From positions 248,001 through 312,000 of the forward strand of contig JAFCMP010000346.1 of assembly GCA_017506865.1 (NCBI GenBank): a stretch of DNA of 64,000 nucleotides. The letters run 5' to 3'. The DNA is from Tribonema minus. Lineage: Eukaryota; Sar; Xanthophyceae; Tribonematales; Tribonemataceae. Below, in pieces: positions 2,343-44,552 of this stretch. The notes beneath the pieces are model-generated. The model was not told where the DNA came from. It did not search any database and saw only the letters and a program-made list of their open reading frames with translations. Position numbers and translations under genes: made by a program. Position 1 is the stretch's first letter. Each line of letters begins with the position of its first letter.

Positions 2343-5300
2343 ATGAGGCGTAGCGCGCGCGGCTTCGTGCTGCTTTTCGCAGCACTGCTGCTGTGCATCA
2401 GTCTGGCATGCTCTGCAGCGCGGCAAGCTCCGCAGCTGGGACAAGTAAGTGCTTTGAGATTGTTCAACCACAGGCGACCAAAAACACATACAAAATCCTT
2501 GCTAACAGCGGTGGGGGCCTGCTTGCTTTCTGCTGTCATCTTATCCAGGCATTGCGATTGCAACGAAGAAGAGGGGGTGATGGAGTGCAAATCGATCAGG
2601 GACTGTCAAAGGTATGACCTGCTTGACGACAGAAGGAAAAACAGCAGGCTCTTCTGCTTTGTCATCGGCAGCTACTGCTGCTGCTGCACCTTTAAAGCTT
2701 ACGTGGCAGTGCATCGATGAAACCCACATACGCTTGCAACGCCATCACTTCTTCACAAGCTTTGATTCGTCGTATACCATGGCTCTACATGAGCACGCTA
2801 AGTGTGCGCGTCACAGGCTCTCTTCTGAAGCCATTGGTGCAGCAGTGCACTATCGATTGGAAAGGAGTTCCAGTGACCGCCTGGAGTGATCTCTTGATAA
2901 CACAGGGAATACTGAGCTGCAGCACTGCTGTGCCTCTTTTGCCAGGTGCTGGCGCTGCGGGGGGGGGTACGGAAAGCCGCGCTGCCGGATGCGGCGGAGG
3001 ACAGCGAGCTGTCGGAGGACGCGCCCAAGAAGCAGAGCGCGGGGCAGCTGGTGAAGGAGTCGCTGTTGAAGTTGCAGCCCGCGACGCGCACGTGAGTCGG
3101 CGCTCTGCGTTCTGTGTGCTGAGCGTTGGTGCATGAGTACGGCATGAGCACGTCTGATGCGATGACAACGGAGGAGACAGCGGCGCAGCTGGTGGCGCAC
3201 ACGCATGACAGGCGCCGCAATAGTGGATAGCATCAGCACTGGTCGGATGAATTGCATCAACACCTGACTTCAGCGCTGCGCCAATACTGCATCAGGAAGG
3301 CGCTGCTGGTATGGCTGTGTAGCAGTGACTGCTCAGGTGGCAGCGCGCAATGTATGTGTGAGTAACGCAAGCTCTGGGCCCCGACAGTGGCACAGGCAAC
3401 TCAGTCAATGACAGCGTCGCATCTGATTCACAAGCAGAGTCTCAGTCCAAGTCCACGACAGCACCGTATTTGACTTCACAAGTAGAGTCTCAGTCAATTG
3501 ACAGCGTCGCAGTTGACTTTGAAGAACAGTTTCAGGGGCTGATACAACGATAGTGATTAGGCGGCGCCGCTGCTGGCGATGCTGCGCGTGATGAGGTCGA
3601 TCCAGCAGCAGCTGGTGTGCAAACTTCAAGTACGTGCTTCAAGTACGGTATGGTCACCATGGACTCCTTTACATGGCATGCTGCAAGTGACAGTCAGCTC
3701 TTGATGGCTCAGCACTGTGCGCACCTTCATCCGTATGAATGGCGCTGCCGTCCGATAATGGCTGCTGGCATCAAAATCAGTTCTGCAAGCCGCACAACAA
3801 CTTGGTCATGTGCAGGAAAGTAAAAAACATACTCGGCCAAGCTCTGTGCTCGTGTGACGAGACTGCCACAGATGCGTTTGTGCGTTCTGACACCATCAAA
3901 CTGCACCAGCGAGCATGCTTTCCCATCAGACCCGTGTAAGTCTGCAACGCGCTAGCTATCATTGCAACCAAGAATCGCAGCAAAAGCAACAATGAGTGTA
4001 CTTCATTCACATGATAGTGCCAGCGGCGTCGGCACATGTGCGCGCGTCTCAAGTTGAAGTGAAGTTATGAGCCGCCAGTGATGTAACGCACCAAACCATG
4101 CACATTGTGGAATGCTGGTGCAATGGCTGCTGCTAGCTGCACTGATTGGGAGTGATGGTGTGAAGAATGGGGCTCGTCATTAGCTACATAGTAACTGCCC
4201 AGAGTGACAGTTGCAGTTGGCGAGAGATGTTGCGTTTTAATGTCTCAATGCCACAAGTGTTTGCATGCACCAGTGCACACAGTAATAGCCAATGTACCAT
4301 CGCGCACCGTGTTGACTTCACCACCAGTGCAGCACGCCCGTGTATACCCAAATACCTATACAGCCATACCGGCAGACAGCGCAATCTGATCCGGTCCCTC
4401 TCTCTCAACCTTGCCGCTACCCAGGTTTCTGCTGCTGGTGCTCTCGGCCAACGTGCTGGAGCTGGCGATGGGGGCCCTGCTGGGGGTGGACGCGAAGGAG
4501 GTGTTCGTGGCGAGCTGGCCGAGAACGATATTGAATCTGGAGCTGTGGCGGCCGCTGACCGCTGCCTTGTATCTGGGGCCCATCTCCATGCACTGGGCAA
4601 CGAACGTGTACTTCCTCATCACGTACGGGTCGCACCTGGAGGCGGTGAACGGGTACGTGCAGAGTGTGTCGTCTTTTCATCATTGTATGTGGAGGTAGCT
4701 AAGCGTAGTTAATGATGGTGGAAGGGGTGCGTCCAGTGGGCGTCATTGCTCAATGTGTCAAGCCACACGTAGAGCATGACGGTGATAGTTGAGTTGTTTG
4801 AGATTGGCCTGGAGCCAATGTCTGCATGCACTTGGCGACCAATGTGTACTTCCTCATCAGGAATGGGTCGTACCTGAAGGCGATGAACGGGTGCGTGCAG
4901 TGCGTGTCGTCTTCATCGTTGTATTGGTGCAGGTAGCTACGCACTGTCATTTGAATCATTTTATTGACACAGCTATGCATAGTTCATGATGATGGGATGG
5001 ATGCGTCCAGTGTGTGGCATTGCTCAATGTGTTGCAGCCACATACTTTACTTTAGTAGAGCATGTAATGGTGGATATTGATGCGCCTGAGATCGGCTGGG
5101 AGTCGATGTATGCGTACGCTACGGCCATTACGAACGCTCTGACCGCGCATTGGTCGCACCTGGATGCAGTCGGTGTGCAAGCTCATTGGGCATGATCGCG
5201 ATGCACAGCACTTGTGGTGGCCACAGCGCGCATGTAGGTCATCATCACACCACATTACATTCATGCATGGATCTAGTTGGTAATCGTGGTTGTCAGAGCT

Positions 5301-7821
5301 TTAATCAATATGGATGGTCACTGAACCATCGTGAAACACACGTGTGCACTGTCATGTTGAAGAGTAGCATCACTGTACTTGAAGGTGATCACGCATGACC
5401 TAGGTGCGGGGCAGACATCTCAGGGCCATGTTCGTACCCATGCTTGCGCGACACGTCAACCATGCCTCACCAACGTTCATGTTGTCTGCATCCAAACCGC
5501 CGCTTCAAAAGCTATGCGTTGGACAGTACAGCGGTGCGCGTACCAAGTATCTCTGCTCGCCCAAATTGCTGCCATTTTGTGTGTTTGCAAAATGGTGCCG
5601 ATGTACATACGCCTATGTCGCCTCGACCGCACACCAACTTCACTGTCGCCTGCGCTTTGCATGCGTGCCGTCGCTTTGCTCTCCTTCCATGCCACCCCAC
5701 AGCACGGCAGAGCAGATAGTCTTTCTGCTCACGGCGTTTGTGTGCGTCACCATCCTGGGGGCCCTCATCAGTCTGCCGGTCGTGTCGACGAGCCTCATAT
5801 CGGCCTGCGTCTACGGGAGCGCGAGGGTGGACCCGCTGGGCTCCGTGCCATTCCAGTTTGGGCTGCAGGTACAGAACCCTGTCTGATTCCTTTTTTCATA
5901 CAGAAGTGGCACCATACTGGTACATCCATGCCGCCGAATCCAACGCTATCCAGCTCACCGGCAGCGCAGCCGTGTGTCTCTTCGCGTATGGATCACGCGT
6001 CGACCATTTGTTTCGGGGGCCCCCGTCCGGCCGCCGGCGTTGTCAGGGTGAAGGTTAGGGTTAGGCCAAACCCTAAGGTTAGGGTTAGCAGGTACGGTGT
6101 CCCGCTGTCAGCACATTTCGAATGGCACACTGGCGCTTGAATGCCTCGCATGTGTATCCGGCCCTATCTACAGCGAGGACTACTTCAACGTTGACACCCG
6201 TGCGTCTGGCAGTCCTCCCACCCGCTATGTACACCCCCCACCCCGCAACACTACCCGCCACTCACAGTGGTCTGGCCGCCACGTCGGGTTCACATTGGCG
6301 CATTTATGCCGCCTCTTTCAACGCTATTCAGCTCGCTGGCAGCGCAGCAGTGTGTCTGTTTGCGTGTGGCATATGTGTCGAATGCTAGTTTTGGAGGCCC
6401 TCGTTGGTCTGTCGGTGGTGTCAACGGTCTCGTGATCACCAGCAGCAGCACCAGAGGTTTGGGTTAGGGTTAAACGCGATGCCGTCCAGGCACTGGCACC
6501 AGCTGCGCAACAAGTGTCGCGGCTGTGGTGCGAGACAAGGCAAGCGCCGGTGCCAGCAAAGCAGCATAGATCGCCGACTGAGGGACCGTCTGGTGAGGGC
6601 AGGCAGCGGGCAATAGCGAGCGAGTGCTCCGTGCGCTTCCGCCTAAGAAGCTTCATGTGTCCGCCTTCAACCTCAACTTCAGCTGTGCATGGTTTTAGCA
6701 TAGCACCCCCGGCAGACGCGGAAGTGACTGCTGCCTTGCGGCTTCAAGGTCGCTGGTGTCATGCAGGCGGGCGACATGGAGTGAGCGATCACGGCGCTCA
6801 CACTCTCAACTTCACGTCTCTGGTGCCAACTGCAACCCCCCCCCCCAATGCTCACGACGTCCATAACTCCAACCTCGCGCCCCCCGGCAGATGCCGCGGT
6901 GGCTGCTGCCGTACGGCCTCGCGGTCCTGGACTTCCTGCAGGCGAAGGCAGCATTGACCACCACCCTTCACTCGGGCCTTCCGTCTCTACACTCACGCCC
7001 CCCCCCCCCTCCCCATGCATCCCCTCCCCCGCAGATGCCGCGGTGGCTGTTGCCGTACGGCCTCGCCGTCGTGGACTTCCTGCAGGCGGGCAAGATCGAG
7101 GCGGCGATACCGCACGCCGTGGGCATCCTCGCGGGCCACTTCTACACGTTCAACCGCAACACACTGCCGCTCATGGGCGGGCGCGACTGGCTGCGCGCGC
7201 CGGGGTGGCTGCAGCGGCGCGTGGACGGCGGCGGCGGCGCGACCAACTTCATGGAGAAGCCCAAGAAGACCGCCGGTGGGTTTGGCAACAATGTACTACC
7301 TTCCACCCCGCACTTGTTAACACCACTGATTCCAGAGACTTGCGCAGTGTGTGTAGTGTCTAATGCGCGACAAACTTCATGGAGAAGCCCAAGAAGACTG
7401 CCGGTGGGTGTTTGTCACAGGTTTGGTTATGCAGCGTGTGTAGTGTCCAGCGCACCCCCATTCGAATGGTGATGCGGGCACATATGGAGGAGCTGTTTTA
7501 GCGTGAGTTGTACTGCGCAGTGCACCCCCATCCGATTGGTGATGTGTGCACACGTGGCGGGAGCCGAAACGCGAGTCGTGGTTGAATTGTGTGGTCGCTG
7601 TCTGTCGAGTGTGAGCGTGTGACGCCTAGCCTGCAGACTCCCACGCGCACTTGGCTGCAAGGAATAATGTGGCACCACCTGCAAGCATTGTGCGTACTGA
7701 CATACCTACCGCTGTATGCCTGCGCTTGCTGCCACGTTGCGCTGTGTGCCACGCTGCAGCAGCCAAGAAGAAGACTGCCACGCGCGCCAAGGCAGAAGAG
7801 AATGAGGCATCAGAAGAGTAG
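2343..7821 (+). CDS. DER1: Derlin (Der1-like) with N-terminal signal peptide; candidate complex-plastid (SELMA-type) Derlin
   Basis: Six exons with consistent phase: 2343-2444, 2946-3091, 4425-4652, 5703-5868, 7035-7275 and 7760-7821, giving about 314 aa. Residues 1-25 (MRRSARGFVLLFAALLLCIS...) look like a cleavable signal peptide. About 55 polar residues follow before the Derlin core begins at PATRTFLLLVLSANV. Family hallmarks are LELWRPLTAALYLGPISMHW, NVYFLITYGSHLEAVNG, TAEQIVFLLTAF and PRWLLPYGLAVVDFLQAGK, with a Lys/Glu-rich tail. Derlins are rhomboid pseudoproteases that move misfolded proteins out of the ER for degradation. ER Derlins normally lack a cleaved signal peptide and are about 240 aa, so the extra leader suggests the symbiont-derived Der1 used for import into a four-membrane plastid. 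That targeting is inference; the family assignment is firm. Introns 3, 4 and 5 hold copies of exon edges. Confidence 0.85.
4845..5185 (+). repeat. Decayed copies of the 3' end of Derlin exon 3 (with donor) inside intron 3
   Basis: Exon 3 ends around 4609-4652. About 57 bp of that end with its donor recur at about 4848-4905, with clear base-for-base similarity including the GGGT..GTGCAG junction. A poorer copy lies near 5152-5182. The copies get worse with distance from the exon. Confidence 0.65.
5925..6440 (+). repeat. Two decayed copies of part of Derlin exon 4 inside intron 4, with telomere-like repeats
   Basis: Blocks at about 5928-6055 and 6303-6430 are similar to each other over about 120 bp. 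Both resemble exon 4 around 5715-5800, for example the GGGGGCCC...GTCTG..GGT stretch. TTAGGG-type motifs sit at 6053-6088 and 6463-6475. Confidence 0.5.
6707..6950 (+). repeat. Two upstream copies of the acceptor and 5' start of Derlin exon 5
   Basis: The real exon 5 begins at 7035 after CCCCCGCAG. A near-identical copy starts at 6891, encodes PRWLLPYGLAVLDFLQA, and has its own CGGCAG acceptor. A decayed copy starts near 6707. A copy of the exon's 3' end with donor lies downstream at about 7366-7405. The 6891 copy could act as an alternative 3' splice site. Confidence 0.75.
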
Positions 7822-8365
7822 GGATACTGAACATGGGGGGCGGTAAATGTATGGCACACGCTCTCTACTGCACCTGGCTCATGATTAATGGTTCTGGCTT
7901 TGCCGGTGCATGCCCTCTGCCTGTTCTCGTTGATTGCTGATGCTGATTGGGCGTCATTGCTGCGAGCTGGCCCCCTCAGCCTGAGGCATCAGTGGCATAG
8001 CAGTTGTGTATAGTGCAGTACAATCTTGAGGATCAACTTCAAGTTGTGTAACAAGACAACGGCTCTCCTTAGGGCGCGAAGAAGCTCAAACCATCGTCGG
8101 AGGGGGAGGGGGGGAATTGTTGCGCAGCACCATCGTGTTGGAGGCGCATACATGTATACATGTTACAGAACACAGCCATAACTGCTGTAGCATACCGTTA
8201 CGTCTGAGCTGAGCGTCACATCCCATAGTTCTTCCTTCCAGACCCCGCTTAATTACAATCTCATCTCAGGAACGTCACGACTTGTGGCCGTTGTGGAAGT
8301 CATTGAGATTGTGGACAGCAACTGTTTGCGACAAAAAGGGGGGGCGCGGTGCACGCTGCGTCATC
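7822..8365. other. Intergenic region between Derlin and sideroflexin
   Basis: No coding region recognised. It should hold the Derlin 3' end and the sideroflexin promoter. In-frame codons run upstream of the sideroflexin ATG at 8366 back to 8282, but nothing in them resembles the family. Confidence 0.5.
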
Positions 8366-9388
8366 ATGGGCGCAGACCTGAGCAAGCAGCTGAAGGCTGC
8401 TGAAGCCACCCCTCCCTTCAGCTTGGAGAAGCCGCGGTACGACCTCGACAGCTTCGTAGGCCGCTCCCTCCACTTCTACTCGGTGAACGACCCTCGCACC
8501 TTGCTCTGCTCCAGCGATGACCTCAAGGCATCGATGGCGTTGCTGGAGAGCTACAAGGCAGGAACTCTGCCTGCAGGAATCGGGGACCAGCAGCTCTGGG
8601 CGGCTCGGAGGCTGATCGAGAGCGCAATACACCCAGACACGAAGCAGCCCATCCCACCCTACCTGCGTTTCAGCGCCTTCGTTCCCATCAACATGTTCAT
8701 AGTGACAGCCACTCTGGCCCCGGCGGTCATAGGGTCCTTCGCCGCCACGGGCTGCATCCACCTCGTCAACCAGACCTACAACGCCGCCATCAACTACGCC
8801 AACCGCAACGCCTCCAACCCCGTCTCCACACAGCGCCTCATGGAAGGGTACGCCGGCGCCGTGGCGACGTCGCTCACCATAGGCCTGTCTGCGACGGCGC
8901 TCACCAGAAGGGCGTCACGGTGGACACCCTTGGCTGCGGGGCTCATCCGCTCCACCCTGCCCTTCCTGGCGACGGCGGGGGCGGGCTTCGCCAACGTGGC
9001 CCTCATGCGGCGCAACGAGCTGGTGGAGGGCGTGGACATGTTCGACGCGGAGGGGAACATGCGCGGCAAGAGCAAGATCGCGGGCCAGACGGGCATCGCG
9101 AAGTGCGCCGCGGCGCGCCTCATCTGGAACGTCCCCATCATGATGTTCCCCCCCCTCCTCATGACGCACCTCGAGAGGACGGGGCCGCTGCGGCGCAACC
9201 CGCGCCTCAAGATGGCGGTCGAGGTCGGCGTCATCACGTCGTGCCTGCTCGGCGCCGTGTCGCCGTCGCTAGCCGTCTTTCCGCAGCGCGACGCTCTCCG
9301 CGCGGAGACCCTGGAGCCGGAGTTCAGGGGCCTGACGGACAGCGCGGGGCGGCCGGTTACGACGCTTTACTACAACAAGGGGTTATAG
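8366..9388 (+). CDS. SFXN: Sideroflexin, mitochondrial inner-membrane amino-acid (serine) carrier
   Basis: Uninterrupted 340-codon reading frame with no intron. I chose ATG 8366 (MGADLSKQL) over an upstream non-ATG extension because the family signature starts shortly after it. Markers in order: PRYDLDSFVGRSLHFYSVND, DPRTLL, HPDTKQPIPPYLRFSAFVP, NQTYNAAINYANRNAS, several hydrophobic membrane spans, an internal LIWNVPIMMFPPLLM span, and the family-typical C-terminus TTLYYNKGL. Length fits the usual 320-335 aa. Sideroflexins import serine into mitochondria for one-carbon metabolism. The gene sits alone between two intron-rich genes and lacks the exon-edge arrays seen in them. Confidence 0.95.
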   Translation: MGADLSKQLKAAEATPPFSLEKPRYDLDSFVGRSLHFYSVNDPRTLLCSSDDLKASMALLESYKAGTLPAGIGDQQLWAARRLIESAIHPDTKQPIPPYLRFSAFVPINMFIVTATLAPAVIGSFAATGCIHLVNQTYNAAINYANRNASNPVSTQRLMEGYAGAVATSLTIGLSATALTRRASRWTPLAAGLIRSTLPFLATAGAGFANVALMRRNELVEGVDMFDAEGNMRGKSKIAGQTGIAKCAAARLIWNVPIMMFPPLLMTHLERTGPLRRNPRLKMAVEVGVITSCLLGAVSPSLAVFPQRDALRAETLEPEFRGLTDSAGRPVTTLYYNKGL

Positions 9389-11305: not shown

Positions 11306-14300
11306 ATGCCGTACAGAATTGCAGTAGTCATGGTTTGCCTGCTGCAAGCCGCGCAATGCATAATGCCTCGACCAGCAACTATTCAAAGGCATACGTGTGG
11401 CCTAGGCGGAGTGCCAGCAGCCGTACGTCAACATCGTCGATTAAGCATGGCAACAGACGGCCATGCAGCAGAACCATTGGTAGAACATAAGCCTCGAGGT
11501 CCAAATCTGAAGAATCCGCCTCTATTGCCAGAAGATCAGTGGCCAACATATCCTGGCTTCAACTTCGAGATTCTACACCGGGACCAGGGTGATTCTGATG
11601 CGAGGACAGGGCGGCTGACGACCCCTCATGGCGTAGTGGAGACACCTGCCTTCATCTTCTGTGCCACGAAAGCTGCTATCAAAGGGCTCACGATGGAGCA
11701 GATGAAGGCCTGCGATACGCAAATAGTGAGTTTCTGGGCCAGACTGCGTGTGTGCGTGCTTTCTGTAGTCTGTTGCTGCGTGGTGGCAGAGTTTGTGCGT
11801 TGCGTGACTGAGGCCTAGGAAATGTGATAGGCTGATTTTGTTCTTGCGGCACTGCTTTAGCCTTTGCGATGCGACGAGCTATCAAGTGGTGCGGTTTCCC
11901 CGTGTGCGCCACCCATGTTGAAATTCGACTCACCGGTGTTGGTGAACGAGGCTTATCTGGGCGCAGTGAGTTTTCTATGAAACCTCTTGCACCGTCCAGA
12001 CGGAGGTGCGCGTTTCTTCTCCCTCACCACCCATCCTCCGCTGCACATGGGCATCATGCGTAAGGGCGATGCATACCCTAGCCGGCACTGCACATGCAGC
12101 TAGTTAACCACATGCATTTGCACTTGCACCCTCCACGCAGGTGCTGAGTAACACGTACCATCTACACGTGCAACCCGGGAGCGAGGCCATCAGAGATATG
12201 GGGGGCCTTCAGAAGGCGACCAACTGGCGGGGGCCCATGCTAACCGACTCTGGGGGGTATCAGGTGACGCAAACATTGCTGCAGTTGTGCGCCCGCGTGC
12301 TGTCAATACAACGCATCTCGGTACCTATACAACGACTCATGCACCATGGACCCATGCTGACCGACTCTGGGGGGTATCAGGTTACGCAAACACTGCCGCG
12401 GTCGGTGTGCCTTCACCTTCAAGGCCTGTGACATGTTTTTGTCGTCAGGCGCAGAGACAGCGACTCATGCACCAAGGGCCCATACTGACCGACTCAGGGG
12501 GGTATCAGGTGACGCAACACTGCTGCAGTCGGTGCGCCTTCACCCTCGCCCACACCGTTCATCAATCACTACGCACATGAGCATTGCGGGCAGGTTCCGT
12601 CTTACGGACTCAGAGGGGTCTCAGGTGACGCAGCGCTGTTGCGTTCGGTGCATCATGTGGTATCGCTTGTGGTGACGGTTTGCCTAAGGCGCTGGTTGTG
12701 CTGGCAATCGGCGCGCCGCGCAACTGGCAGCTCGAGGTCGCACGGTGGCACACTGTGTCAGATCCCTCCGAGCTGCTTGCCAACAATCTACACGCACATT
12801 CGCGCCGGCACATCGGTCAGATATGGCCGAGCGAATGTGCACCACTCAATAATGTGAGTGTCTCTCTGCATCGCTTACCCTTTTCAACACATGCAGATAT
12901 TCAGCATGGGCCACGGATCCGTGAGCGATGAGATAAAGGGGCGGCGCGGAGCGACGGACGCCAATCCAAATCCCCCCAGCCTGCTAAGCATTGGGGAGAA
13001 GGGGGCACGCTTCAAGAGCTATCATGACGGGAGCATCAAGGTGACCAGAAAAGTAGTTGTTCTGGTGCTTGCCATGTCAAGACGACAGTTTTCGTGGCGT
13101 TCGTTCCATTGGGAATCTCCCATAGTGGCTCAAAGCGCGCAGCTGACCGGAGAAACACAGATGTTACAGCACTTGCCAGCTGTTGAGCATTAAGATGACG
13201 GGTTTCGTGACGCCTGTTAGCTGTGAGGAATCCCCGCATGTACAGAGTGGCTCGAAAGCGCGTGGCCAAGTGGAGAGCCGGCGCTGAGCTCGCAAGCGCG
13301 CACCAGAATCGCGCTCAAGTGCGTAGCGTGGTGAGCCGTCCTGTCGGCTTGTCAAGCGCGACAGAGTGCTGTTTCGGCGCGCCGTCTGATTGAAGTCAGG
13401 GCTGGAATCGGTGCCAGACGGTTGAGCGCTATGAGGCTATTGAGCGCTGCCGCCAGTTGTGCACACCGACGGTGTGCGTAAAGGTCGTTGGCGTTTGTTC
13501 TGATTCTGGCGCAACATGATTAGGGAGCACGGACAAGTGCAAGTCCTTCTCCTGTGCTCCATGCCATAGTTGCGGCCGCCACTACCGACGTCATGTTGGT
13601 TTGAGATGACACTGAGACATGTGGTGTTAACTTTGAATGCTTTGTCATTTACGTCAGTGCTGACTCTTGAAATATGGACATGGTCAAGGCACCTGTTCAA
13701 CTGCTGTTGCGGTCAGTATGCAGGCAGCTTCAGAGAGCAGGCATGCTGGCAGTATGGCTCAGCCCTGGCAGCTGCTGCCTGTGTGTTGCTGATGCATAGC
13801 TCCAAGCTAACACATGGGCAGCTGCGTCACTTGAGCCCTCACGCAACCACTTTCATACATGCCCATATACCATACATACCCCTGCACAATAATGCACAGC
13901 TCCGGGCTGCCATCCATTGCTGAGGGCCAAGTTGCCACTGCCAAATGGACTGCTGCTCTCCATCCGGCATTTTCACATCCAGAAGCACGGCACGCGCAGT
14001 TCTGTCCGGCCACAATGTAAGGTCCATGCCCACATTCAATGGTGAGCATGAACCTGGGGTTGGGGTTCAAAATAAGGGTTAGGGTTGATCTTAGGCTGCA
14101 GGCCCCCCATGCGCTGACTCGAATTAATCGCCTGCAAGGCTACCCTTGCTAAGAACGTGCCAATGGCGGTTTTTCAAACAGAGAATACCCCCCCCCCGCC
14201 TTTGCACTGCCAAATGTGACGTTGCTCTACGCCGCAGCAACTCAGCCCGGAGACGTCCATCCAAATACAGCGTGACCTGGGCGCGGATCTGATACTGGTG

Positions 14301-16226
14301 CTCGACGAATGCACCCCCTTTCATGTCGACAAGGAGTACACGGCGGCGAGCACGCGGCGCAGTCACAGGTCAGAGTCATGAGCCAGAGTCATGAGTGAGA
14401 GTCACAAGTCAAAGGTCACATTCACAGGTCAGGGTCACGAGTTGGAGACATGAGTGAGAGACACAAGTCAGTGCCACAGTCACAAGCCAAACCGCCCCTG
14501 AGAACCCCCCCAACTTGCTGCCTGCACGCGTTGCACGCACACCACACTGCGCATCGCGGCACGGCTACTGCACTCCAGCTGGGACGTGCACTCGGTACCA
14601 TCGAGGCAGTGGAAACTCTGGCCCACCCATGCCACTGAACCCCCCTCCCCCCCCCCCCCCCCATCCCCCTTCAGGTGGGCGCTGCGCTCCCTGAACGAGT
14701 TTGTGCGCACCGCCAACGAAGGCGCGCAGCAGCAGGCGCTCTACGGCATCATCCAGGGCGGCGTCTACCGCGACCTGCGCGCGGAGAGCGCCGCCTTTGT
14801 CAACGCGCAGCCGTTCTTCGGCATCGCCGTCGGCGGCAGCCTCGGCGCGAGCGCGGCCGACATGTACCGCGTCGTGGACATGACGATGGCCATGGTGCGG
14901 CGCGACCGCCCCGTGCACCTGCTCGGCATCGGCGGCGTCGCCGACATCTTCAACGGCGTCAGGTGCGCGCTGCTGCCGCCGCTGCTGCTGCTGCTGCTGC
15001 TGCTGATAGTACTTGCGTCTGCTTGGCGTCGGCGGCGTCGCCGACATCTTCAATGGCGTCAAGTGCGCGCTGCTGCTGCCGCCGCCGATGTTGCTGCCGC
15101 TGTCGCTGCTGCTGCTGCTGCTGCTGCCGCTACTGCTGCTGCTGCTGCCGCTGCTGCTGCTGCTGCCGCCTCCGCTGCTGCTGCTGGTGGTTCTTGTATC
15201 TGCTCGGCATCGGCGCCGCGCGTGCATCGTCAACGGCGTCAGGGCCGCACTGCTGCTGCTGCCGCCGCCACCGATGCTGCTGCAGTCACGGCATCGGCAC
15301 GTTTGACTGCGTGCACCCGACGCGCCTCGGCCGCCACGGCGGCGCGCTCGTGCGCGTGCGCCACTGGCCAAAATCAGCATGCTCACTCGCCGTGCAGTCC
15401 TCCCCTCCCGTTCACACCAACCCGTGGCTGTCACTTATCATCATGCCCTCCCACATGACACGCGTGCCGGCAGGCGTGGCATCGACACGTTCGACTGCGT
15501 GCTACACGACGCGCCTCGGCCGCCACGGCGGCGCGCGACCCGTCACTGCCCCACCCACCATACTGACCTCCTCTCTTGTTCGCTCTGCACACTCACCAAC
15601 TCGTCATGCCCTCCTCCTGTCATCCTGGGGTACCCACCGGCAGGCGTGGCATCGACACGTTCGACTGCGTGCACCCGACGCGCCTCGGCCGCCACGGCGG
15701 CGCGCTCGTGCGCGCGCGCCACTGGTCGCGTGGCGGCGGCGAGGGCCAGGTCCCGCGCGCCTCCATCCAGCTCGCCAAGGGCCAGTTCCGCGGCGACGCG
15801 CGCCCGGTAGACGCCGAGTGCGGCTGCCCCACGTGCGCCGCGGGGTACTCGCGCGCGTACCTGCACCACTGCGTGCGCGCGGGCGAGCTCGTCGGCGGCG
15901 CGCTCCTCACGCAGCACAACGTCTGGACGATGAACGCGCTCATGGCGGACGTGCGCGCCGCGATCGCCGCGGGGACCCCGCTCGAACAGGTTGAAGATCA
16001 TTGGCTCGCGCCCGGACTGCGCTCCGCGGACATTGTCGCCGCCGACGCGATGCGGCGCGGCGGCGCCGCCGCTGCTGCTGCCGGCGACGGCGGCGATGGA
16101 AGTGTCGCAGCAACGCACGCCACGGGCGTCGCCGCCGCCGCAGGAGGGCGCAGTGACGGCGGCGGCGCTGGCGGCGGCAGCGGCGATGCGGCCGATGATG
16201 GCAGCATCACGGCGGCGGCCTTGTGA
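11306..16226 (+). CDS. tgt: tRNA-guanine transglycosylase (queuosine tRNA modification) with a hydrophobic N-terminal leader
   Basis: Six exons with matching phases: 11306-11725, 12141-12263, 12897-13040, 14238-14368, 14675-14962 and 15644-16226 (562 aa). Hallmarks: [39 protein letters not shown] with the substrate-binding Asp, [27 protein letters not shown] with the nucleophilic Asp, [41 protein letters not shown], and the zinc site [17 protein letters not shown]. It exchanges guanine 34 of certain tRNAs for a queuosine base. The first 20 residues ([18 protein letters not shown]) look like a signal peptide followed by a basic stretch, so plastid targeting is possible; that part is inference. 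The C-terminal tail is long, low-complexity Ala/Gly. Introns 2, 5 and the intron before exon 6 carry exon-edge copies. Confidence 0.92.
12345..12640 (+). repeat. Three tandem copies of the 3' end of TGT exon 2 with donor
   Basis: The true exon end is at 12233-12263 (GGCCCATGCTAACCGACTC.. ending TATCAG before GTGACG). The same edge plus donor recurs near 12350, 12477 and 12593, spaced about 115-125 bp. The last copy is the most diverged. Each copy ends in CAG followed by GTGACG or GTTACG, so each looks like a usable 5' splice site. Confidence 0.85.
14963..15275 (+). repeat. Copies of the 3' end of TGT exon 5 with CTG-rich intron sequence
   Basis: The exon end encoding [10 protein letters not shown] (to 14962) recurs at about 15016-15065, nearly intact, and in decayed form at about 15197-15250. 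Each copy is followed by a (CTG/CCG)n block like that after the real donor. So the unit contains exon edge, donor and intron start. Confidence 0.75.
15284..15545 (+). repeat. Two upstream copies of the acceptor and 5' start of TGT exon 6
   Basis: The real exon 6 starts at 15644 after CCGGCAG. The same start, encoding [17 protein letters not shown], recurs at about 15474 with an intact GCCGGCAG acceptor and a changed codon after TTCGACTGCGTG. It recurs again at about 15290, where the acceptor is degraded. Spacing is about 170-185 bp. Confidence 0.85.
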
Positions 16227-17876: not shown

Positions 17877-19259
17877 ATGAAACTTGTACGCGCTCTGCGA
17901 AAGATGCTCCATCATGAGGCGGCCAAGGACGTCAATGACATAGGCTTCCATGTTGCACAGGGCATCACAAGCAACGAGGACGATGGGCCGGGCGGCACTC
18001 AGCAGGGCAGCGACAGCGGCAACGCGACACAAGATCCAAATGAGCAGCTGCAGCAACAGCGATCAAGTGATCATGCGACAGTGCAACATCCCCAGTCGCA
18101 GAAGGACGCTCCCTCACTGCAGCTGGGACGTGACGTGTGTCACGGCGCTCTTGAGGTGGTGATGCAGGAACACATTGCGGAGCAGCTGGCAAAGGATGTA
18201 GCCACCGCTGGGTGGTCGGCCGTGTACCAGCGCCTCACAGGTTAGCAGCCCTTCGCGGCACCATTTATTGCAATCAGTGTTCCAGCTCGAAGACTTGCTA
18301 CGACAGTCTCATGCATGCTGCATAAGCGCGCGCCATACAGTAAGCGCTCGTGCATTCGTCACTTGTGTTCCCCAGTCAGCAGGCCACAACAATACAATTT
18401 GAAAAGCTGTGTTGCTGGCGGCTGCTGCTGATGGAATAGCCACACTGGGCTTGTGCTTCAAGTCAGATGCTTGACAATGTGCATAGTTGCCGTGCCTATA
18501 CAATTTACCACAAGCTCAAGTTGCTGCTATGTACCGGGTGTTATCTGACTCAATTATGGGTCTGACCCGTAGGCCAAGTTTGCATGCTGGCAGCAATTCA
18601 CATACAGCACCTGAAAGGGCAGCCAGCTGCTGCTAACGCGGACTCCCGACCAGTGCAATGACGACGTTGAAGTGCGGCGTTGAAGTTGGGAGCTGTGGCC
18701 GTGTGGAACCGTCTACTGGCTTCTTGTGATGGTCTTCCACACCCATCCATTCAATCGCTCTGTGTCATCCATAGGCCCCAGCCTCCAGATTTCATTGCCA
18801 TCAGTAGCAGCGGATACCACGCGCCACCAGTGGCACATTACCAGCATCTTCATTGCTGGCATACCAGAGGATCTCTAAGGTGTACGATCCATTCGTTCAA
18901 TCTCTTCCGCGTCATCCACAGGTCCCAGTCTGCCGGAGACCATAGCCATCAGCGCGCTGGCAGCGGCCGCCGCCGCCACCGGCTGGCACATCGCCAGCAT
19001 TTTCATTGCTGGCACGCTCGAGGACCTCTACGGCACTTGCTGCCCTCCTGGCTCGTCCACCGGCCGCAGCATAGGCTGCCGCATGCTGGTGGTGGGGTTC
19101 GGTCTGCTGGCGGCTGTGGGGGGCGGGGGGGGGGTGCTGCTGCGGTGGCGCCGCCGAAAGGCAACGTCCGTTGACTCGGACTCTGAGTCAGGTGCATCGC
19201 CAGAGGGGGCCTTTGGCGGTCAGAACGGTGCAGCAAAAGGAACAGCTGGCGCGTTTTAG
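17877..19259 (+). CDS. Two-exon membrane protein of unknown function
   Basis: Exon 1 17877-18240 and exon 2 18922-19259 join in phase at a Gly codon (CTCACAG|GTCCC), giving 233 aa. Exon 1 encodes a polar Gln/Ser/Asp-rich region with EVVMQEHIAEQLAKDV. Exon 2 encodes two probable membrane spans (TIAISALAAAAAATGWHIAS and MLVVGFGLLAAVGGGGG) separated by a Cys-containing loop (GTCCPPG), a basic RWRRRK stop-transfer, and a Ser/Asp/Glu then Gly-rich tail. I do not recognise the family. The start could instead be an internal exon, because CTTGCAG directly precedes the region. A decayed copy of the intron 3' end and exon 2 start lies at 18738-18890, which supports the acceptor. Confidence 0.5.
18738..18895 (+). 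repeat. Decayed copy of the acceptor and 5' part of exon 2 of the membrane-protein gene
   Basis: Aligns over about 150 bp to 18896-19050, including the TTCAATC...TCATCCA(T/C)AG acceptor, the GCATCTTCATTGCTGGCA core and the GAGGATCTCTA end. The copy has an in-frame stop and many changes. It sits immediately upstream of the functional edge. Confidence 0.75.
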
Positions 19260-29492: not shown

Positions 29493-32400
29493 ATGCTGAA
29501 GCGCAGGAGTTCCGCCAACACGCCTGCGCCAGGCACGATCTCACATGTTCACAACTCTGGATCGGCGCCCGCCAGCATCTTGGAGCAGAGTCCGAACTCG
29601 CTGCTGTCGGCTGAGTACAACTCTAGAGAAGGCGACAAGGCAGCACACACCATCATGGGCTCCCCCCAATCGCCAGGAGCCACAGCAGCACATGGGCGCA
29701 AATTCAAGGACTGGAAGCGGAGGGTGGGGGAGACGGCATTGCAGAAAATCGGTGGGTAACACTTTGGAGGCTTGATAATTCAGCTTGTGTGAGAAGTTGA
29801 AGTAGCAAGTGTTCTGGTTACATGTGCTTTCTGGGTATATTATACTTCCTTGTTTCCAGCGAGGTCGGGGGTGTGGGGTGATCGCAACGGGCCGCCGTGA
29901 CCCATGCGGACATGGGAACCAGTGTCTTCGAGGTCGCACCGTGGAGCAGCGCTGCCAAGGCTGCACCCCGGACACGCATGTGCTTCGCACAAGAGGCGGG
30001 CACTACCACCTCTGCCGAACCGATGCGGGTGCTCTGAAGCTCCAGTGTTGAACTCCTGTTTCAAGCGTTCCGCTTAGAGCCTTCGCGACATCGCACCCCA
30101 TTTCGTCAGCCGTTCATTGTAAACGAGCCGTGTGCAGTGAGAGCCCCCGGGTCTCATGGCAGAAGAGCGCGCCTGCGCTCCCGTGCACAGACACTTGCCA
30201 CACGTGGCGTCTGTAGGGTGCGCGCCTGATGCTGCGCGTGGACGAGGCCTTTTGAACTGTGGCGATCCTCGATCAGTAGCAGCAGATGGTGGTCAGCGTA
30301 CGATAAAGGAAACGACGCCCCCGCACCATCCTGCATGCACTACGCATTGAAGTGTCAACATGACATACTTGAAGTACTAGTAACTGCTCCTTCCGAAGTC
30401 TGTATATAGACTCCGAAGCGACTGCAGGCACACGCAAATGCGCGTGCCCCCGGCACCGCGTGGCACAACGAAGGCCCCCATACCACGCGTTGCAATGCCC
30501 GTGCTCGCACCTTCCCCCGTCCACCGCGCTTCAGCAGGTGAACGAGTCTCGATCCCGAGTCCAACTCGTGTCAACGGCGCCTGCCAATGCGCACGTGTCG
30601 CACACGCCTACTCACGATGACACCCGCGAAGGCGCGTCTCACGGCTGGCGGCAATGGAATGGGTTTCGGCGCTTCCGCAGTCCCTGAAAGTTCACGATTG
30701 CTCGCTTATCGAGCGCTTTCACTCCGGTGCGGTGGGCATGGCAATTCACTGAGCGTTGTTGAGACATGGGAAGAAGGGGGGGGGGGGGGGGCAGGGGGGG
30801 CGTTGGTGATGGGAATGCAGGGCGTACTAGTGAGGCATTGCTCAGGCGGCTCAGCCCCTTGCGCCGTCAGCTGTGCATTGCATTTGCGCGCAGGGCTGGT
30901 CGTCTGAGTCCAACGTAGGGCAGAACACGTAGGGAAGAACACATGAAGTTTTCGCTATGAAGTTTATGCTGGCACACAGCAAGGCCAGCGGAACCCCTTC
31001 TGCTCTGTGGGGGGTACCAGAATCTTCCAGAAACTGCCCTCCCTGAACCGACTGAGAGTAAGGCGCTTAGTCCCTGACCCTTGCTCTGAAGCTGTCGCCA
31101 GCCTCACTGTCACCCCAACCCCTGGACTTCTACGCCTCAGCCCCCCCCCCATTCCGGGCGGCGTTGACGTAACCACAATCCGGGTTCGACAACGCATACT
31201 TGGCGTGACCTCAATCCAATTCCTCCGTTGCGCAGATTGGCTCATCGCTATGCAGTAGCGGTTCGCGGCTTGGCATGAATGATATGCTTACACCCCCCTC
31301 CCCCCTGCCCCCCCCCCCCCGCCCCCCCTCCCGGCCAAAATGCGTCATCTTCCCCCGCAGGCCTCACCAACCCCAGCAACGACGAGAACTCGGGCAACAT
31401 CGACGCGCCGCTGGCCGAGTTTGCGCGCCTGCGCGACGATCTGAGCCTCATGCAGAGCCAGATCGCGGCGTACGTGGGCGCGACGGAGGCGGAGTTCGTC
31501 GCGGCGCGCCAGCTGACGTTCCTGCACGCGCCGCGCGCGGGCGACGCCGCCAAGCACGTCAAGGCCGCGCTGTGCACGAGCTGCGTGCACGACGCCGTCA
31601 TTCGAGGGGTGCGTTTTGCCATCTACTTCAAGCACTTGAAGTAGATTTGTACACGTTCCTGCACGAGCCGCGCGCGGGCGACGCAGCGAAGCACGTCAAG
31701 GCCGCGCTGTGCACGAGCTGCGTGCACGACGCTGTGATTCGAGGGGTGCGTTTGGTGATATATATTGGTATAATGCAGTACTTGTCTGTATTCCTCATGA
31801 ACCTAGGAGTACGTATTTATAGTGGCGACGCCGCCAAGCACGTCAAGGCCGCGCTGTGCTCGTGCTGCGTGCACGATGCCGTCATCCGAGGGGGGCGTCA
31901 TTCTATCATCTGTATTACTTCAAGGTGGTGTGCATACTTGAAGTAATTTGTGCGGGTGACGCCGCCAAGCACGTCAAGGAGGCTGCGCTGTGCACGAGCT
32001 GCGCACACGACGCCGTCATCCGAGGGGTGCGTTTTGCCTATATTGTATACTTGAAGTATACTTCAAAGAAGTATGTGTAGTTGAAGCCACCGAGCACGGC
32101 AAGGCCGTGCTGTGCACCAGCTGCGTGCACGATGCCGTCATTCGAAGGGTGCGTTTTGCCATAAACTTCAAGTATATTTGGAGTAGATTTGTACACGTTC
32201 TTGCACGCGCCGCGCGCGGGCGACGCCGCCAGGCACGTCAAGGTCGCGCTGTGCACGAGCTGCGTGCACGACGCTGTGAGTCGAGGGGCGCGTTTGGCTT
32301 TATATACTTAGACCTGTATACTTGAAGTATATGTATAGTCAGGGGGTTAGGGTCAGGCGACGCCGCCAAGCACATCAAGGCCGCGCTGTGCACGAGCTGC

Positions 32401-35400
32401 GTCCACGATGCCGTCATCAGAGGGGTATGTGTTTCCATATTGCCTGTACAAGTGGTATTGATAACGCAGTGCATTTCTGTACTCTTCGTGAACCTTGGAG
32501 TACGTATTTATAAATAGTTTTGACGCCGCCAAGCACGTCAAGGCCGCGCTGTGCACGAGCTGCGTTCACGACGCCATCATCCGAGGGGTGCGTTTGGCCA
32601 TATTCTTGAAGTAGATCTGTGCACTTGAAGTATATGCATGCGGGCGACGCCGCCAGGCACGTCAAGGCCGCACTGTGCGCCAGCTGCATGCAAGGTACCG
32701 TCATCCGAGGGGTGCATGTGTGTGACGCATACTGATTTTGCGTGATCTGTGTCACGTGTGTATGCTTGAAGTAAACGCGCGCGGGCGACGCCGCCAAGCA
32801 CATCAAGGCCGTGCTGTGCACGAGCTGCGTACACGACGCCGTCGTGTTCGCGGGGTGCGTGTTGTGACACGTTCTAGTGTGTTATGATCTGTTGCACGTA
32901 GTATACACTTGAAGTAGATGTAGAAGTGTATACTGGAAGCATACGTGTACTGTTGATGCCGTCACGAGCGCGTCCAGGCCACAATTGATGATGCTCATCG
33001 CCCCTCGAGCGTCACCCCCCTCCTGGCCGTTCCTGTCTCTGTAACTGCCGTAACTGCAGATGCGAGAACACCTCTGCGCGCCACTGCGCGCGGTGCTGCT
33101 GTCATTGGCAGTGACACGCAATTGCTGCACCTCCGGGCAACCACATTTGATGTTGCTCTTCGCCCCTCGAGCCTCACTCATTCGTTCGGCCGTTTCTGTT
33201 TCTGTAACTGCCGTAAGTGCAGATGCAAGAGCACCTCTGCGCGCCGCTGCGGGCGGTGCTGCAGTGGTGTGACACCACGGACGCGCTGGCCAAGCGCCGC
33301 GCCGCGCTGGTTCTCGACTATGATCACCACAAACGGAAGGTGAGGTGCAAGTTGCAATTGGGTAGAGATGATTTAAGAACGTCACAGCAGTAGCATTATT
33401 TGATGACATGTATATGACGCATTCACCTGGAAACAGTAGCATGATATGATTAGCGTATACGTGATGTTGTGGTAGTGGATGCGTGACTTTCACACATGAT
33501 TACGATCACCACAAACGCAGGGTGAGGAACAGTTTGTCATTTCAAGTGCATGCAGTTTGCTGCTGCCAAGTATTCAATTGTTACCTGTGGCAATACCGTC
33601 AGCTGATCGTCGCGAAAGCTTCAGCACGAGCAGACCGCTTTGGATAACCCAAGCCTTACCCTATGCACCAGGTGCCGCGGTATGCGTACAACATGAAGCC
33701 TATCGTACGCGCACATCTCAAGACATACCCCCCCCCCCCCCTGTTATCCCCCCCTGCCATTCAATGCCCAACACTTGCCACCGTCAGGCACGCCAACAGT
33801 ACATGTACTTGCGTTTAACTTTACTGAGCTTCAAAAGACGCACCTCAGAGCAGAAGTGTTGTATGTAGAGGCGCAGAACGATGCACGTTGCAATGACTTT
33901 GATGTATGTGTTTCCCGATGCATGTGCATGCTTTGGACTGTCTAGCGGTCAACTGCCTGGTGCATTGCACTGATGCAAGTTGCCATGAAGCGAGCGCTCC
34001 GCCCCCTGCTGTGTGCGCGCTTGGCTCTGATGAATGTGAAGAAAAACAAATGCGGCGCACGACAACCTCAGCATTGCACGTCCCTGGCAATGCACGTGCC
34101 ATGCGCCACTGCGCTTGAACGAGTCTTGTGATCACGCATTGCAGATGGACACCATATGTGCTGCCTGTCGCCAAGGCTTCTCATCAGAAAAGTCCAAGCG
34201 CGCGCTGATGATCCTGAATGACCCATCAGCTGCTGTACAACAGCGCGACTGGACTAATCATCCGCACGTGTCTCAACGCACGTGCCGCAACGCACATGCC
34301 TCCCCCCCCCCCGCCCCTCACCAACGCATGCCGCCCCCCCCCCGTCCCCCCCCCAACGCCTGCCGACGCCCGTCGCCTCATCCCACTCCCCCCCCCCCCC
34401 CCCCCTTCCCCCCGTGCTGCAGCTGGCGGCGGCGCAGCAGCGCGCCGCCGCGGCGCACGCGACGGGCCGCCGCGCCTCCGCCGACACGGACGAGCGCGAC
34501 GCCGCGCTGCGCCAGGCCAAGCTCGCCGCATCTACAAACGACCTGCGCGCCACCACCGCGGACCTGCTCGCGCACATCGCAGCGCTCAGCCGCGTCGAGC
34601 GCGCGCTGCGCGACGCCGTGTGCCGCGGCCTCGCGGCGGCGGCGGCGGCGCGCGCGCGCGCCGCGCGCTTGCGCCGCTGGACGCCGGCGGCGTGCTGCGC
34701 GACCCCGGCGTCGCCGAGTGCCTCGCGGCGATGGAGGCGGCGGCGGCGACGCGCGGCGGCGGCGGCGGCGGCGCGGCGGCGGCGGCGGCAGCGGCGGTGC
34801 CGGAGCAGGAGGCGGCGCTGCGCGAAGCGCTGGTGGCAGCCGCCGCGGAGGTGCGTGTGATTGCTGCTTGCGCTGAGCACTGCCGCTTTGTGCTTTGTGA
34901 AGGTGCTCATGTGTTGAGCCACGCTGCGTGGCGTGAGCAAAGGGCGCTGCTCGTGATGAGCGCCGCTGCTCCGTCCGTGCGCGCCGCCACGTCTGCCCCC
35001 GCACCGTCCCCCCTCAACGCTCCCAGCCTCCAAATTGCACACCCTTACGCGTACACACACACACGCGCGCATGCGCTGCGCAGGCCAGGGCGGAGGCGGA
35101 CGCCGCAGCCGCCGCCGCCGACGCCGCGGCGGCGGCGGAGGCGGCGGCCGCGGAGCTCGAGGCGCACCCGCCCGGCGCGCTGTTTGGGCGCTCGCTGGCG
35201 GCGTGGTCCGCGCCGCCGCCGCCGCTGCGCGAGTGGGTCGCGTACCTCGACGCGCACGGCCTCTACGTGCGCGGCCTGTTCCGCCTGCCCGCCGCGCTGG
35301 ACGACGTTTCGGACCTCAAGCGCCGCTACGACGCCGGCGAGGCCGTCGCGCTCGACGCCGTCAGCAGCAGCAGCGGCGGCAGCGGCGGCGGCAGCAGCCC

Positions 35401-37665: not shown

Positions 37666-37694
37666 GAACATGCATCTTGAAGTAGGAGAGTCCC

Positions 37695-40600
37695 CTAGCG
37701 GCGCTTGCGCTTTGCGCCAGTCTTGTCATCGTCCCCGTCCGCAGCCATCGCCAGGCAGTGGGCAATGGCGGGGCCCCTGAGCTCCCACACCTTGCGCTGC
37801 AGCTGCGCCGGTGTGCAGCGAGCGGCACCGTGGGAGAGAGGGGTAAGTCATATTCAACTGCGTGCATCTTCAACTGTGGGCAGGGGCTGCGCTGCGGTGC
37901 ACCGCGGTGCAACGAGGGGCGCCATGGGAGAGATGGCCAGTCAGATTCAACTGGGCACATTTCCAACTGTGGTTTGTGGGGGCTGCGCTGCGGTGCGCCG
38001 CGGTGCAGCGAATGGCGCCATGGGGAGAGGGGTAAGTCATATTCAACTGCGTGCATCTTCAACTGTGGTTTGTGGGGGCTGCGCTGCGGTGCGCCGCGGT
38101 GCAACGAACGGCGCAATGCGAGAGATGGCCAGTCAGATTCAACTGCATGCATCCTTCAACTGTACACGGCGCGCGAACACACGCCTGCGTAACCGGAACA
38201 CCTACATACCTGCCCCGATGCGCCACACTTCAAGAAAGTGCATAAAGCGTGCACGCCTCGAAGCGCACGCGCAGGACGACGCGGCGCGCGAACATGCCTA
38301 CGCAACTCAGATACATACCTACATACGCCAAACTTCAAGAAAGTGCGTACCACCGTACCTCAAAGCGCACGCGCAGGACGATGCGGCGCGCGAACACATG
38401 CCTATTTAACCGAAACGCCATGGATGCCTGCCCCTCAAGAAAAAGTGCATACCAACCTACCTCAAAGCGCACGCGCAGGACGATACGGCGCGCGAACGCG
38501 CCCGCGTCGGGCACGCCGCCGCCTCCCGCTGAGCGTTGCTGCTGCTGCTGCACGCCGATGTCCATCACCTCCATGAGCAGCGCCTCCCTCTCGAGTATCT
38601 CCATCGCGGCCTGGCGAAGCGCAACGCGATGCAGTGTAGCGGACAGACACATGCATAGGGTCAAGGCCAGGCGCTGCGCGTTACGCGGTATTGACGAGTG
38701 CATATCATACCTAGTTTGCAAAAGTGAGGGCCAGGAGTACACGTACTGTACAAGGATGTACTGGCCAGGACCAGCGCACTCCAAAAAGCGCCGCGCACGC
38801 CGTGGCAGTGGCGTCTGTGTCTTGTACCTGGTTTGCAAAGTGATGGCGAGGAGTACGCGGCGTACTGTACAATGATGGACTGTACTGTACAAGGATGTAC
38901 TGCAGCACGTCGTTTCAAGCATGCATGTGCACACCACGCGTGCGGTAATATGTCTGTCTTGTGTTGCACTTATTGGGCTGCGAAGTGATAGCATAACCAG
39001 CATCGATTGCGTCGCGGAACAAGATCTCGTGGGCGGAAACTGTATCTGCAACAAGATGATCACGTGACAGGGGCACGTATGCAGCGCTGTCGAGCGGTGC
39101 TGCTGCACTGGGCTCGTAGCCTCCGCTCACCCAACCTGCATACCCGTGCTGAGAGATGCTGCCACCTGAGCGCTGACGCCTCATGCATCTCGCCGCTCAA
39201 AGCAGGCTAATTGCGCGTGATCATGTGCAACGCCGAGCACTGCTGCCGCACTGGCACCAGCCCCTCTCAGACAGTGGCGCTGCGCGCAGCGACCCTAACC
39301 CTAAGACCAAGTGCCGGTCCGTCACCTGCAGCCGGCGAATCGCCAAGTCGATCTCCCGTCACACACTGTCCGCCACCGCGGCAGCACGACCATCGCTGCA
39401 CGCCCGTCTTACTTCAACCCCACCCCCAATCCTAACCCTGACATCAGCCCTCACCCTAACCCCGACCCTAACCCTCAGCGTCACCTCAGTCCCTACCTAA
39501 CGCAAATTCCAACCACCACCTGCAGCTGGCTAATCGCCGCATCGATATCCCGCCACACACTCTCCGCCACCGCGGCAGCAGCGTGGCCATCGCCGCACGC
39601 TCGTCTTACTTCAACCTCAATCTCAACCCTGACCCTACCCCCTAACCCTAACCATCACCTCAGCCCCTACCCCCCAACCCTAAGACCAATTCTCACCTGC
39701 AGCTGGTAAATCGCCGCGTCGATCTCCCGCCACACACCGTCCGCCACCGCGGCAGCAGCGTGGCCATCGCCGTACGCCTGCCTTACTTCAACGCTCACCT
39801 CAACCTAACCCTAACCCTAACCCTGATTCTAACCCCAAGTCCAATCGCCGGCCCGTCACCTGCAGCTGGCGAATCGCCGCGTTGATATCCCCCCACGCAC
39901 TGTCGGCAGCAGCGTGGCCACCGCCGCACGCCCGCCTTGAATCCAGAACCTCACAGCAACCCTAACCCTATCCTAACTTTGATGGCGAGCGCCTGACGTT
40001 ACCTGCAGCTGGCTAATCGCCACGTCGATTTCTCGCCACGCGCTGTCGGCAGCAGCGTGGCCATCGCCGCACGCGCGCCGCAGCCGGCCCGTATCAAGCG
40101 CCAGCGCCGCCGTCACCTCAGGCCGCGTCAATTGGTCCATGTCGACCAATGAGGTCGCGGCATCGATGACCGCGGCCGGCGATTGGCCGGGCCGGAGCCA
40201 CAGCGCGTGCAGGTCGGCGTCGCGCGCCACGAGGTGCGACAGCGGCGCTATCATCAGCTGCGCGCAGCAGCGTCGGCGGCAGCGGGGCAGGCGAGTGGGT
40301 CGCACGATTTTATGTACAACAGTGTACAGAAGTATAATTTGGGTGGTTTATGTATAAAGACCATAGGCATCATTTGAAAATGTACTTGATGCAAGGGTGC
40401 AGGTTGGCGTCGCGCGCGGCCAGTGCGACAGCGGCGCTATCATGATCTGCGCGCGCAGCGTCGGCGGCAGCGGCAGCGGCGGGGCAGGCAAATGGGTTAT
40501 GGGGGTATGAAAGTGGGTGTTTTCTATCGACCATAGGCAGCACTTATGTAGGTATGTGCTGCAAGGGTGCAGGTCGGCGTCGTGCGCGGCGAGGTGCGAC

Positions 40601-41789
40601 AGCGGCGCTCATGAGCTGCGCGCAGCAGCAGCGGCGGCAGCGGCAGCGGCGGGGGCAGGCAAGGGGATTGTGCGTGTACGTATTCACGTGGTGTTTTCAA
40701 ATTGCACGAAGTACGTGTTACCGATGCTCGAGTGTATACCGATGCCGCACGCAGCGTGGTGCGTCAGCGATAGTATCGCGAGCTGTGCGCACAAGTCGGC
40801 GGCGGCGGGGCAGGCGAAGGGGGTTGTGCGAATGGGGGTATCCACGTGGTGTTATCAAAACCGTACGCAGTACATTTCGCTGATGTTTGGGTGTATGCCA
40901 ACGTCACGTGCGGCGAGTGCGTCAGCGGCGCTTTCACGAGCTGCGCACAGAATCGACAGCGGCGGAGCAGGAGCAGAGCGCAAGAGTAGGGGGTTGACAG
41001 CAGGATTATACAGGCCATGCAGAAGCCCGTTGGCGCCAGACTATATCACGTTGGGGCGCATCATGCTGCGCAAGTAATTAAGAAGTTGAGATTGAACACT
41101 TCCTGGTCCTCTACCTCTCTCGTGCCAATGGCGATGACACATCCAGCAGCGGCGGCAGCATGCCCATTTCTGTGATCAAACGTGGACCCTCTTTGTTTGA
41201 CACTGTCTGCTACTTGTGGCATGTCAGTGCCAATGACCACTGCGCGACCCTTGTGATCACCAAGCGTCGGCGCACGAGCGCATGAGGGAGGTGCATCCAA
41301 CTTCAAGTTGAACTTGAATACCGCCGCCGCCGTCCTCTACATCTGTCGCGCCGACGCTGCTGACCCTTACCTGTGGCGGCGGCATATACTTGAAGTATAC
41401 ATGGAGAACTGCTACAGTGACGTTCAATTCGTGATATCACCGTGTCCTCTACACTACTTCTGCCGTGCCGCTGTCGATGATGCTTACCAGCGGTGGGCGT
41501 GGCAGGTTCTTGCGCTGTAACGGCTCGCCGCTGCGCCGGAGCGCCAACTTCAATTCCTTGTTCGTGCTGAACTTGACGTACAGGCGCCTCTCCATCTTCA
41601 ACTCGCCCTTTCTGAAGACCATGCCGATGCGCACGGCGCGCTCCGCGAGCTGCAGAGCGCGGGTAGGTAGGTAGTGTCAGGGTATGGTGTTGGCTTGATG
41701 CTGAAGGTTGCGCTACTGGCTCTCTTTGGTAACAATTGGAGTTAGGGTTCAGAGTTAGGAGTAAGGTTTGGGTCTTTCACTTTGCGTGA

Positions 41790-41833
<44 letters not shown>

Positions 41834-44552: not shown

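Follow-up and report, generated by a model that had tools for sequence, protein, structure and literature searches.

Introns of Tribonema minus carry tandem copies of their own exon-intron junctions

Internal gene duplications that cross exon-intron boundaries reportedly arise at high frequency, as Gao and Lynch are said to have described in 2009, and intronic minisatellites are built of head-to-tail units. The arrays described here, from introns of the xanthophyte Tribonema minus, a member of the PX clade, resemble both. As in internal gene duplication, they are direct, local, head-to-tail repeats of segments of the same gene, and these segments often include an exon-intron boundary (29 arrays, 65 copies). 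Unlike it, they occur in half of the introns sampled, are often repeated at one junction, leave the exon unchanged and produce no new intron. They share head-to-tail units with the minisatellites (VNTRs), but are anchored on exon edges, appear to have the functional unit as their main parent, and are highly diverged. Two other systems can be compared through excerpts of published reports. In those of PMC3443670 and PMC4974935, tandem duplication supplies extra splice sites, a potato case having a duplicated intron-exon structure. Extra splice sites made by duplication are, as far as those excerpts go, common to both systems, but in Tribonema existing introns grow, and we saw no case of an intron arising out of a duplicated AGGT segment: homology between the upstream exon end and the downstream exon start, as in Rogers-type intron gain, was present in 0 of 41 introns (five introns of the tRNA-guanine transglycosylase gene were not classed). 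Introners, according to the excerpt of PMC9860276, likewise add intron sequence across a genome. The Tribonema copies differ in being local and derived from the host exon edge rather than from a dispersed element; the arrays of the window match only locally, and a 601-bp array, the single query used against the genome, matched its own place only. Among the matches listed, titles and abstract openings held no earlier description of junction-copy arrays.

The window, that is the whole stretch of 64,000 nucleotides analysed here (C346:248001-312000), belongs to a genome of which 158.2 Mb in 554 contigs were searched. Self-alignment of the window revealed short-distance direct repeats from about 4.5 to 41 kb and none inside the biotin fusion, sideroflexin and uS7m genes. 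That these single-exon genes are free of arrays had been taken as a sign that a splice junction is needed; the absence is true in the window, but would be expected under any model. A transcript-derived protein set (eukprot, with Trinity names), probably from another strain judging by small differences, contains near-identical Derlin and tRNA-guanine transglycosylase (TGT) proteins. Spliced alignment of one of them (P0001) placed the Derlin gene on the plus strand at 2343..7821, with coding exons 2343-2444, 2549-2611, 2946-3091, 4425-4652, 5703-5868, 7035-7275 and 7763-7821; the 63-base exon 2549-2611 is present in the transcript-derived protein. Exon 4425-4652 has a plus-strand donor array at 4573..5042, with the functional junction after 4652, a copy at 4890 and a period of 236-274. 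Exon 7035-7275, on the same strand, has arrays at both edges: an acceptor array at 6706..7088, with copies at 6716 and 6891 and the functional site at 7035, and a donor array at 7237..7409, with the functional junction after 7275 and a copy junction at 7403. Intron 5 of Derlin supplies a counter-example, a plus-strand array without a junction (5928..6423), linked to an exon-only match at -113..-78.

The TGT gene lies on the plus strand at 11306..16226, and spliced alignment gave the exons 11306 (or 11447)-11725, 12141-12263, 12897-13040, 14238-14368, 14675-14962 and 15644-16226. Its arrays, all on the plus strand, comprise a donor array of exon 12141-12263 (12231..12651) with three copies, at junctions 12380, 12508 and 12624; a donor array of exon 14675-14962 (14919..15286) with copies at 15062 and 15242; and an acceptor array of exon 15644-16226 (15282..15725) with copies at 15286 and 15474. 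A short array at 14360..14484 touches the donor after 14368 and, having 9 exon bases, was counted as not junction-spanning. Spliced alignment and self-alignment thus confirmed, for Derlin and TGT, the claim of the initial annotation that introns hold tandem copies of an exon edge with its splice site and adjoining intron. Copies behind a donor consist of the exon end, a GT and intron sequence, and those ahead of an acceptor of intron sequence, an AG and the exon start.

That claim extended to six unrelated genes. For the remainder of the window we used a supervised gene finder, which was applied to the window and to two random blocks only and never entered the counts from the main sample of introns; a self-trained gene finder drifted to tiny exons and was discarded. 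On the plus strand, predicted junctions coincide with arrays at 18743..19033 (acceptor of exon 18922-19191) and at 31516..32916, a large multi-copy array at the donor predicted for exon 31361-31608, within a predicted gene with a RhoGAP domain by Pfam. On the minus strand, arrays lie at 21815..22018 (predicted acceptor of exon 21704-21851); at 22510..23200 (two, at both predicted edges of a single exon, donor 22793 and acceptor 23017); at 24875..26275 (multi-copy, predicted donor of exon 26180-26431) and 26648..27466 (two, again at both predicted edges of a single exon, donor 26919 and acceptor 27119), both in FAIM1-like sequence by Pfam; and, in uncharacterised genes, at 38164..38497 (predicted donor of exon 38461-38610) and 39293..40974 (both predicted edges of a single exon, donor 40003 and acceptor 40257). 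Besides Derlin and TGT, the FAIM1 and RhoGAP domains of the six genes were thus borne out by Pfam, but the BAR part had no match at E 0.001, and the membrane-protein and nuclear-protein genes are models of the supervised gene finder only.

We then asked how often arrays coincide with splice edges by circular shift, over the window to 49.4 kb and two random 40-kb blocks (C100 and C20). Known or strongly predicted splice edges were overlapped by 29/63 arrays, versus 14.9 +/- 2.9 after shifting, and 0 of 2000 shifts reached the observed number. Taken separately, the window to 49.4 kb gave 18/28 arrays over a splice edge (P=0.0005), block C100 gave 7/23 (P=0.02), and block C20 gave 4/12, which was not significant (P=0.24).

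The main sample consisted of 46 introns from 16 conserved genes: 35 from proteasome and chaperonin genes, six from Derlin and five from TGT. Loci were sought genome-wide with proteasome and TCP-1 family exons; 14 proteasome loci and four chaperonin genes were taken, and their GT-AG junctions were placed by exon phase, consensus and profile coordinates. The CCT-theta model built in this way was 100% identical to the public protein over the query, and spliced alignment of that protein gave the identical six introns. For Derlin, TGT and CCT-theta alike, public proteins bear out the junctions. Seven of the 41 candidate proteasome and chaperonin introns were left unplaced, and one of these (L017 intron 2) was then placed by hand. 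The six omitted introns are those of L014 and L020, L021 intron 1, that of L024, L028 intron 7 and L029 intron 2. Arrays extend to the exon cores in at least L014, L020 and L021, so leaving these out does not favour the finding of junction copies. L025 has a single exon core, and two introns of L017 were retained despite a stop in an over-long exon core. The TCP-1 profile itself matches array copies, at C5:353415-353558 (L029), C135:208473-208583 (L027) and C51:21979-22255, each of which shares the intron-facing exon edge.

The 46 introns contain 41 tandem arrays. An array was called junction-type when it ran from at least 10 bases of exon into the intron, and 31 were so called (18 donor and 13 acceptor, a share of 0.76). 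In 29 of them (16 donor, 13 acceptor) copies could be mapped across the junction; CCT-theta by itself supplies eight of these 29. The initial annotation had every unit spanning a junction, which was too sweeping: 10 arrays have fewer than 10 exon bases and are not junction-type, four of them touching a splice site with 0-9 exon bases, and two of the 31 are exon-only matches that stop 3 and 78 bases short of the junction (L026 intron 3 and Derlin intron 5). Arrays of any kind occur in 29/46 introns and junction copies in 23/46, from 11 of the 16 genes; junction arrays cover 10,041 of 35,081 intron bases (29%). We mapped 65 copies, and 17/29 arrays (0.59) have two or more. A draft claim that internal arrays never reach three copies was dropped, because several copies are present in the array of L029 intron 5, an array in contact with the donor. 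The exon part of the unit measures 13-135 bases (median 60). Copy spacing is 68-340 bp, with a median of 142 and quartiles of 120-177; the period first proposed was about 75-195 bp. Whole units, intron stretches included, align copy to copy in the seven arrays that we viewed. Most matches are 66-96% identical, so the copies are not assembly duplicates. The pattern is genuine and common, and is made up of ordinary tandem duplications.

The suggestion that such arrays are a mode of intron growth was supported. Introns with junction copies are longer than the others (median 938 versus 565 bp, P=0.004), and the more copies an intron holds, the longer it tends to be (rho 0.51, P=0.0003).

We next considered the fate of the copies. 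Mismatches between functional edge and copy at codon positions 1, 2 and 3 were 0.105, 0.103 and 0.182 with copies below 75% identity excluded, and those between copies were 0.219, 0.194 and 0.260 with such copies included, about two-fold higher at positions 1 and 2. This is expected if the copies are unconstrained and the functional exon undergoes mainly synonymous change, and it supports the idea that copies drift freely while functional exons change mainly at synonymous sites. Functional-copy identity falls sharply beyond +6/-5 of the junction, just past the splice consensus; in the window this concerns 12231-40974. We rejected this drop as a sign of selection on the copies, since the alignments and the codon positions suggest copying of whole units, with an intron part that decays on both sides. 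Identity in the intron part was 0.764, against a baseline of 0.69 for unrelated introns, and is below that of a plain neutral simulation (0.80-0.82). Intron parts are thus over-diverged relative to what the exon parts predict, which may reflect faster intron decay or refreshed exon parts in the copies.

Descent was measured by R, the copy-to-copy distance as a fraction of the summed distances of both copies from the functional edge. Sixteen arrays had two or more copies with 75% identity and 25 exon bases; in these R was 0.82 pooled, with a median of 0.92, indicating that most copies descend from the functional edge and not from one another. Another claim was that the nearest copy is the best preserved; this held in 10/17 arrays versus 6.2 expected, a weak tendency (P=0.044) which by our own reading of the listing applied to 6/8 acceptor and 4/9 donor arrays. 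Copies in CCT-theta intron 4 differ clearly in age (0.97 versus 0.84-0.85), and unequal ages of this kind within some arrays speak for serial events over a single burst.

On these grounds we lean, by a modest degree, towards intron growth by repeated tandem duplication of the exon edge with its junction, mostly from the functional junction. A segment beginning 13-135 bases inside the exon, crossing the junction and ending in the intron would be duplicated head-to-tail. The site beside the intact exon would stay in use and the extra copy would become part of the intron, lengthening it by one unit. Use of the site beside the intact exon is seen in Derlin and TGT; growth we infer from intron lengths. 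Copies would drift as unconstrained DNA while selection on the protein held the functional exon edge in place, and most new units would derive from the functional junction, not from older copies, as the descent pattern and the simulations below suggest. The arrays would be tolerated if splicing kept the outermost sites, and hence the shortest exon, as exon definition would do. More tentatively, active junctions could be hotspots of tandem duplication, with a transcription- or splicing-linked ratchet copying outward and leaving dated decoys that exon definition ignores. The polarity rule of the initial annotation, by which donor copies extend into the intron and acceptor copies upstream from the exon, is true but geometric, being what any tandem duplication leaves if the exon stays whole. 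A duplication within the exon disrupts the protein and is lost, which leaves those in the intron and those across a junction; the latter necessarily carry an exon edge and a splice site.

The same logic underlies a serious rival, in which tandem duplication is blind to junctions and survivorship does the rest: events inside exons are purged, pairs lying wholly in the intron lose similarity in both members and fade sooner, and introns were shorter when most events happened. We consider this possible, if rather doubtful. Blind duplication was simulated with substitutions and indels, under settings of our own choosing, and the results were passed through the search and counting rule that gave the observed 31/41. 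Even a blind process is biased towards junctions, given the harm done by exon-internal events and the two-sided decay of intronic pairs. When introns started at 300 bp, it gave 73-75% junction arrays, compared with 76% observed, and some array-free introns are indeed short (7/17 under 340 bp). The broad range of the exon part, without fixed phase, also suits it. The share fell to 59% from starts of 400 bp and to 46% from 500 bp. Residual intron lengths have a median of 481 bp, and blind growth from these gave a share of 0.43-0.57 (P at most 0.007), or, with three-fold faster intron decay, 0.65 (P=0.06), its best result from such lengths.

Copy number and descent were compared in the same way. 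With uniform blind rates and residual lengths, the multi-copy fraction was 0.14-0.32 versus 0.59 observed. Blind rates that varied among introns raised it to 0.42-0.52 (P 0.07-0.27; one simulated intron was dropped for length in two of three settings), which explains the excess, but this model fails on the junction share (P 0.0003-0.007) and, for the most part, on the descent pattern (P 0.004-0.063). Pooled R was 0.66-0.76 in blind simulations, so that the observed value has P 0.004-0.09 depending on the settings. A junction-directed simulation gave a share of 0.83-0.85, a multi-copy fraction of 0.40-0.48 and an R of 0.85, compared with 0.57, 0.23 and 0.71 for its blind uniform counterpart. 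The directed model, with rates varying among junctions, thus yields too high a junction share and too low a copy number. None of the blind settings tried fits share, copy number and R all together. The junction-directed model came closest, and preferential re-copying of the functional junction is the better-fitting, although unproven, reading. The proposal that units are added at the functional junction thus receives moderate support from R and the simulations, tempered by the match of blind growth from 300 bp to the junction share; no motif, agent or breakpoint signature was noticed.

Could selection instead maintain the copies, for the useful isoforms that they would yield as alternative splice sites or exons? 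Decoy or alternative sites had been predicted, and they are present: the dinucleotide is intact in 31/38 GT and 27/27 AG cases, and 19/31 donor and 13/27 acceptor copies equal or exceed the functional site in our simple consensus score. Full AG retention was rejected as a sign of selection because the count is inflated by ascertainment, alignments that end short of the junction having been left uncounted. Further points in favour of selected isoforms are that the exon parts are more alike than the neutral simulation predicts relative to the intron parts, and that the public TGT model (P0006) includes the array copy 15286-15423 as an extra exon. The transcript-derived TGT protein (P0007) lacks it, and in the transcript-derived Derlin and TGT proteins, the two genes where use could be read, copy splice sites are unused and the outermost sites are used. 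Spacing is a multiple of three in 23/65 cases, the chance level, and positions 1 and 2 drift equally, neither of which fits alternative or mutually exclusive exons. We consider selected isoforms highly improbable. The TGT case is also a warning that gene models of the Tribonema genome can absorb copies as exons, as the public one appears to have done, and other models may carry the same error.

Very unlikely too is an expansion of the arrays, after a first duplication, by minisatellite-like unequal exchange or gene conversion among copies, for which the many multi-copy arrays (17/29) and a CCT-theta intron 2 copy at -140, with identities of 1.00 in the exon and 0.74 in the intron as short conversion tracts could leave, would speak, but which as copy-of-copy growth should give many shared derived changes where there are few (57 pair-sites, compared with 793 differences from the functional edge).

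With growth from the functional junction as the preferred reading, the layout of the arrays bears on how they are ignored by splicing. In all six introns with both kinds of array (6/6), no acceptor copy lies upstream of any donor copy. Donor copies upstream of acceptor copies leave no AG-to-GT pair within the arrays, so that array sites could only lengthen the true exon. Exon definition would ignore such sites, whereas intron definition would prefer the inner pair; the order of the copies and the use of outermost sites in two genes are consistent with exon definition. The arrays bear on two old questions, how introns become longer and how the spliceosome finds the right site among near-identical alternatives. 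Many genes here hold a natural series in which a working splice site, set in its own exon context, is accompanied by one to seven near-copies with a built-in clock, so that both questions are directly testable.

Two other kinds of repeat were seen in the window. Interstitial TTAGGG-type repeats, several of them intronic, lie at 6050-6090, 24668-24702, 43457-43485 and 55060-55083. At 50374-59795 a long minus-strand open frame, which reads like what we take to be a reverse transcriptase, is repeated in tandem; the two copies lie 4,736 bases apart and share 99.7% identity across 4,686 bases, and a further partial copy lies at 49489-49976.
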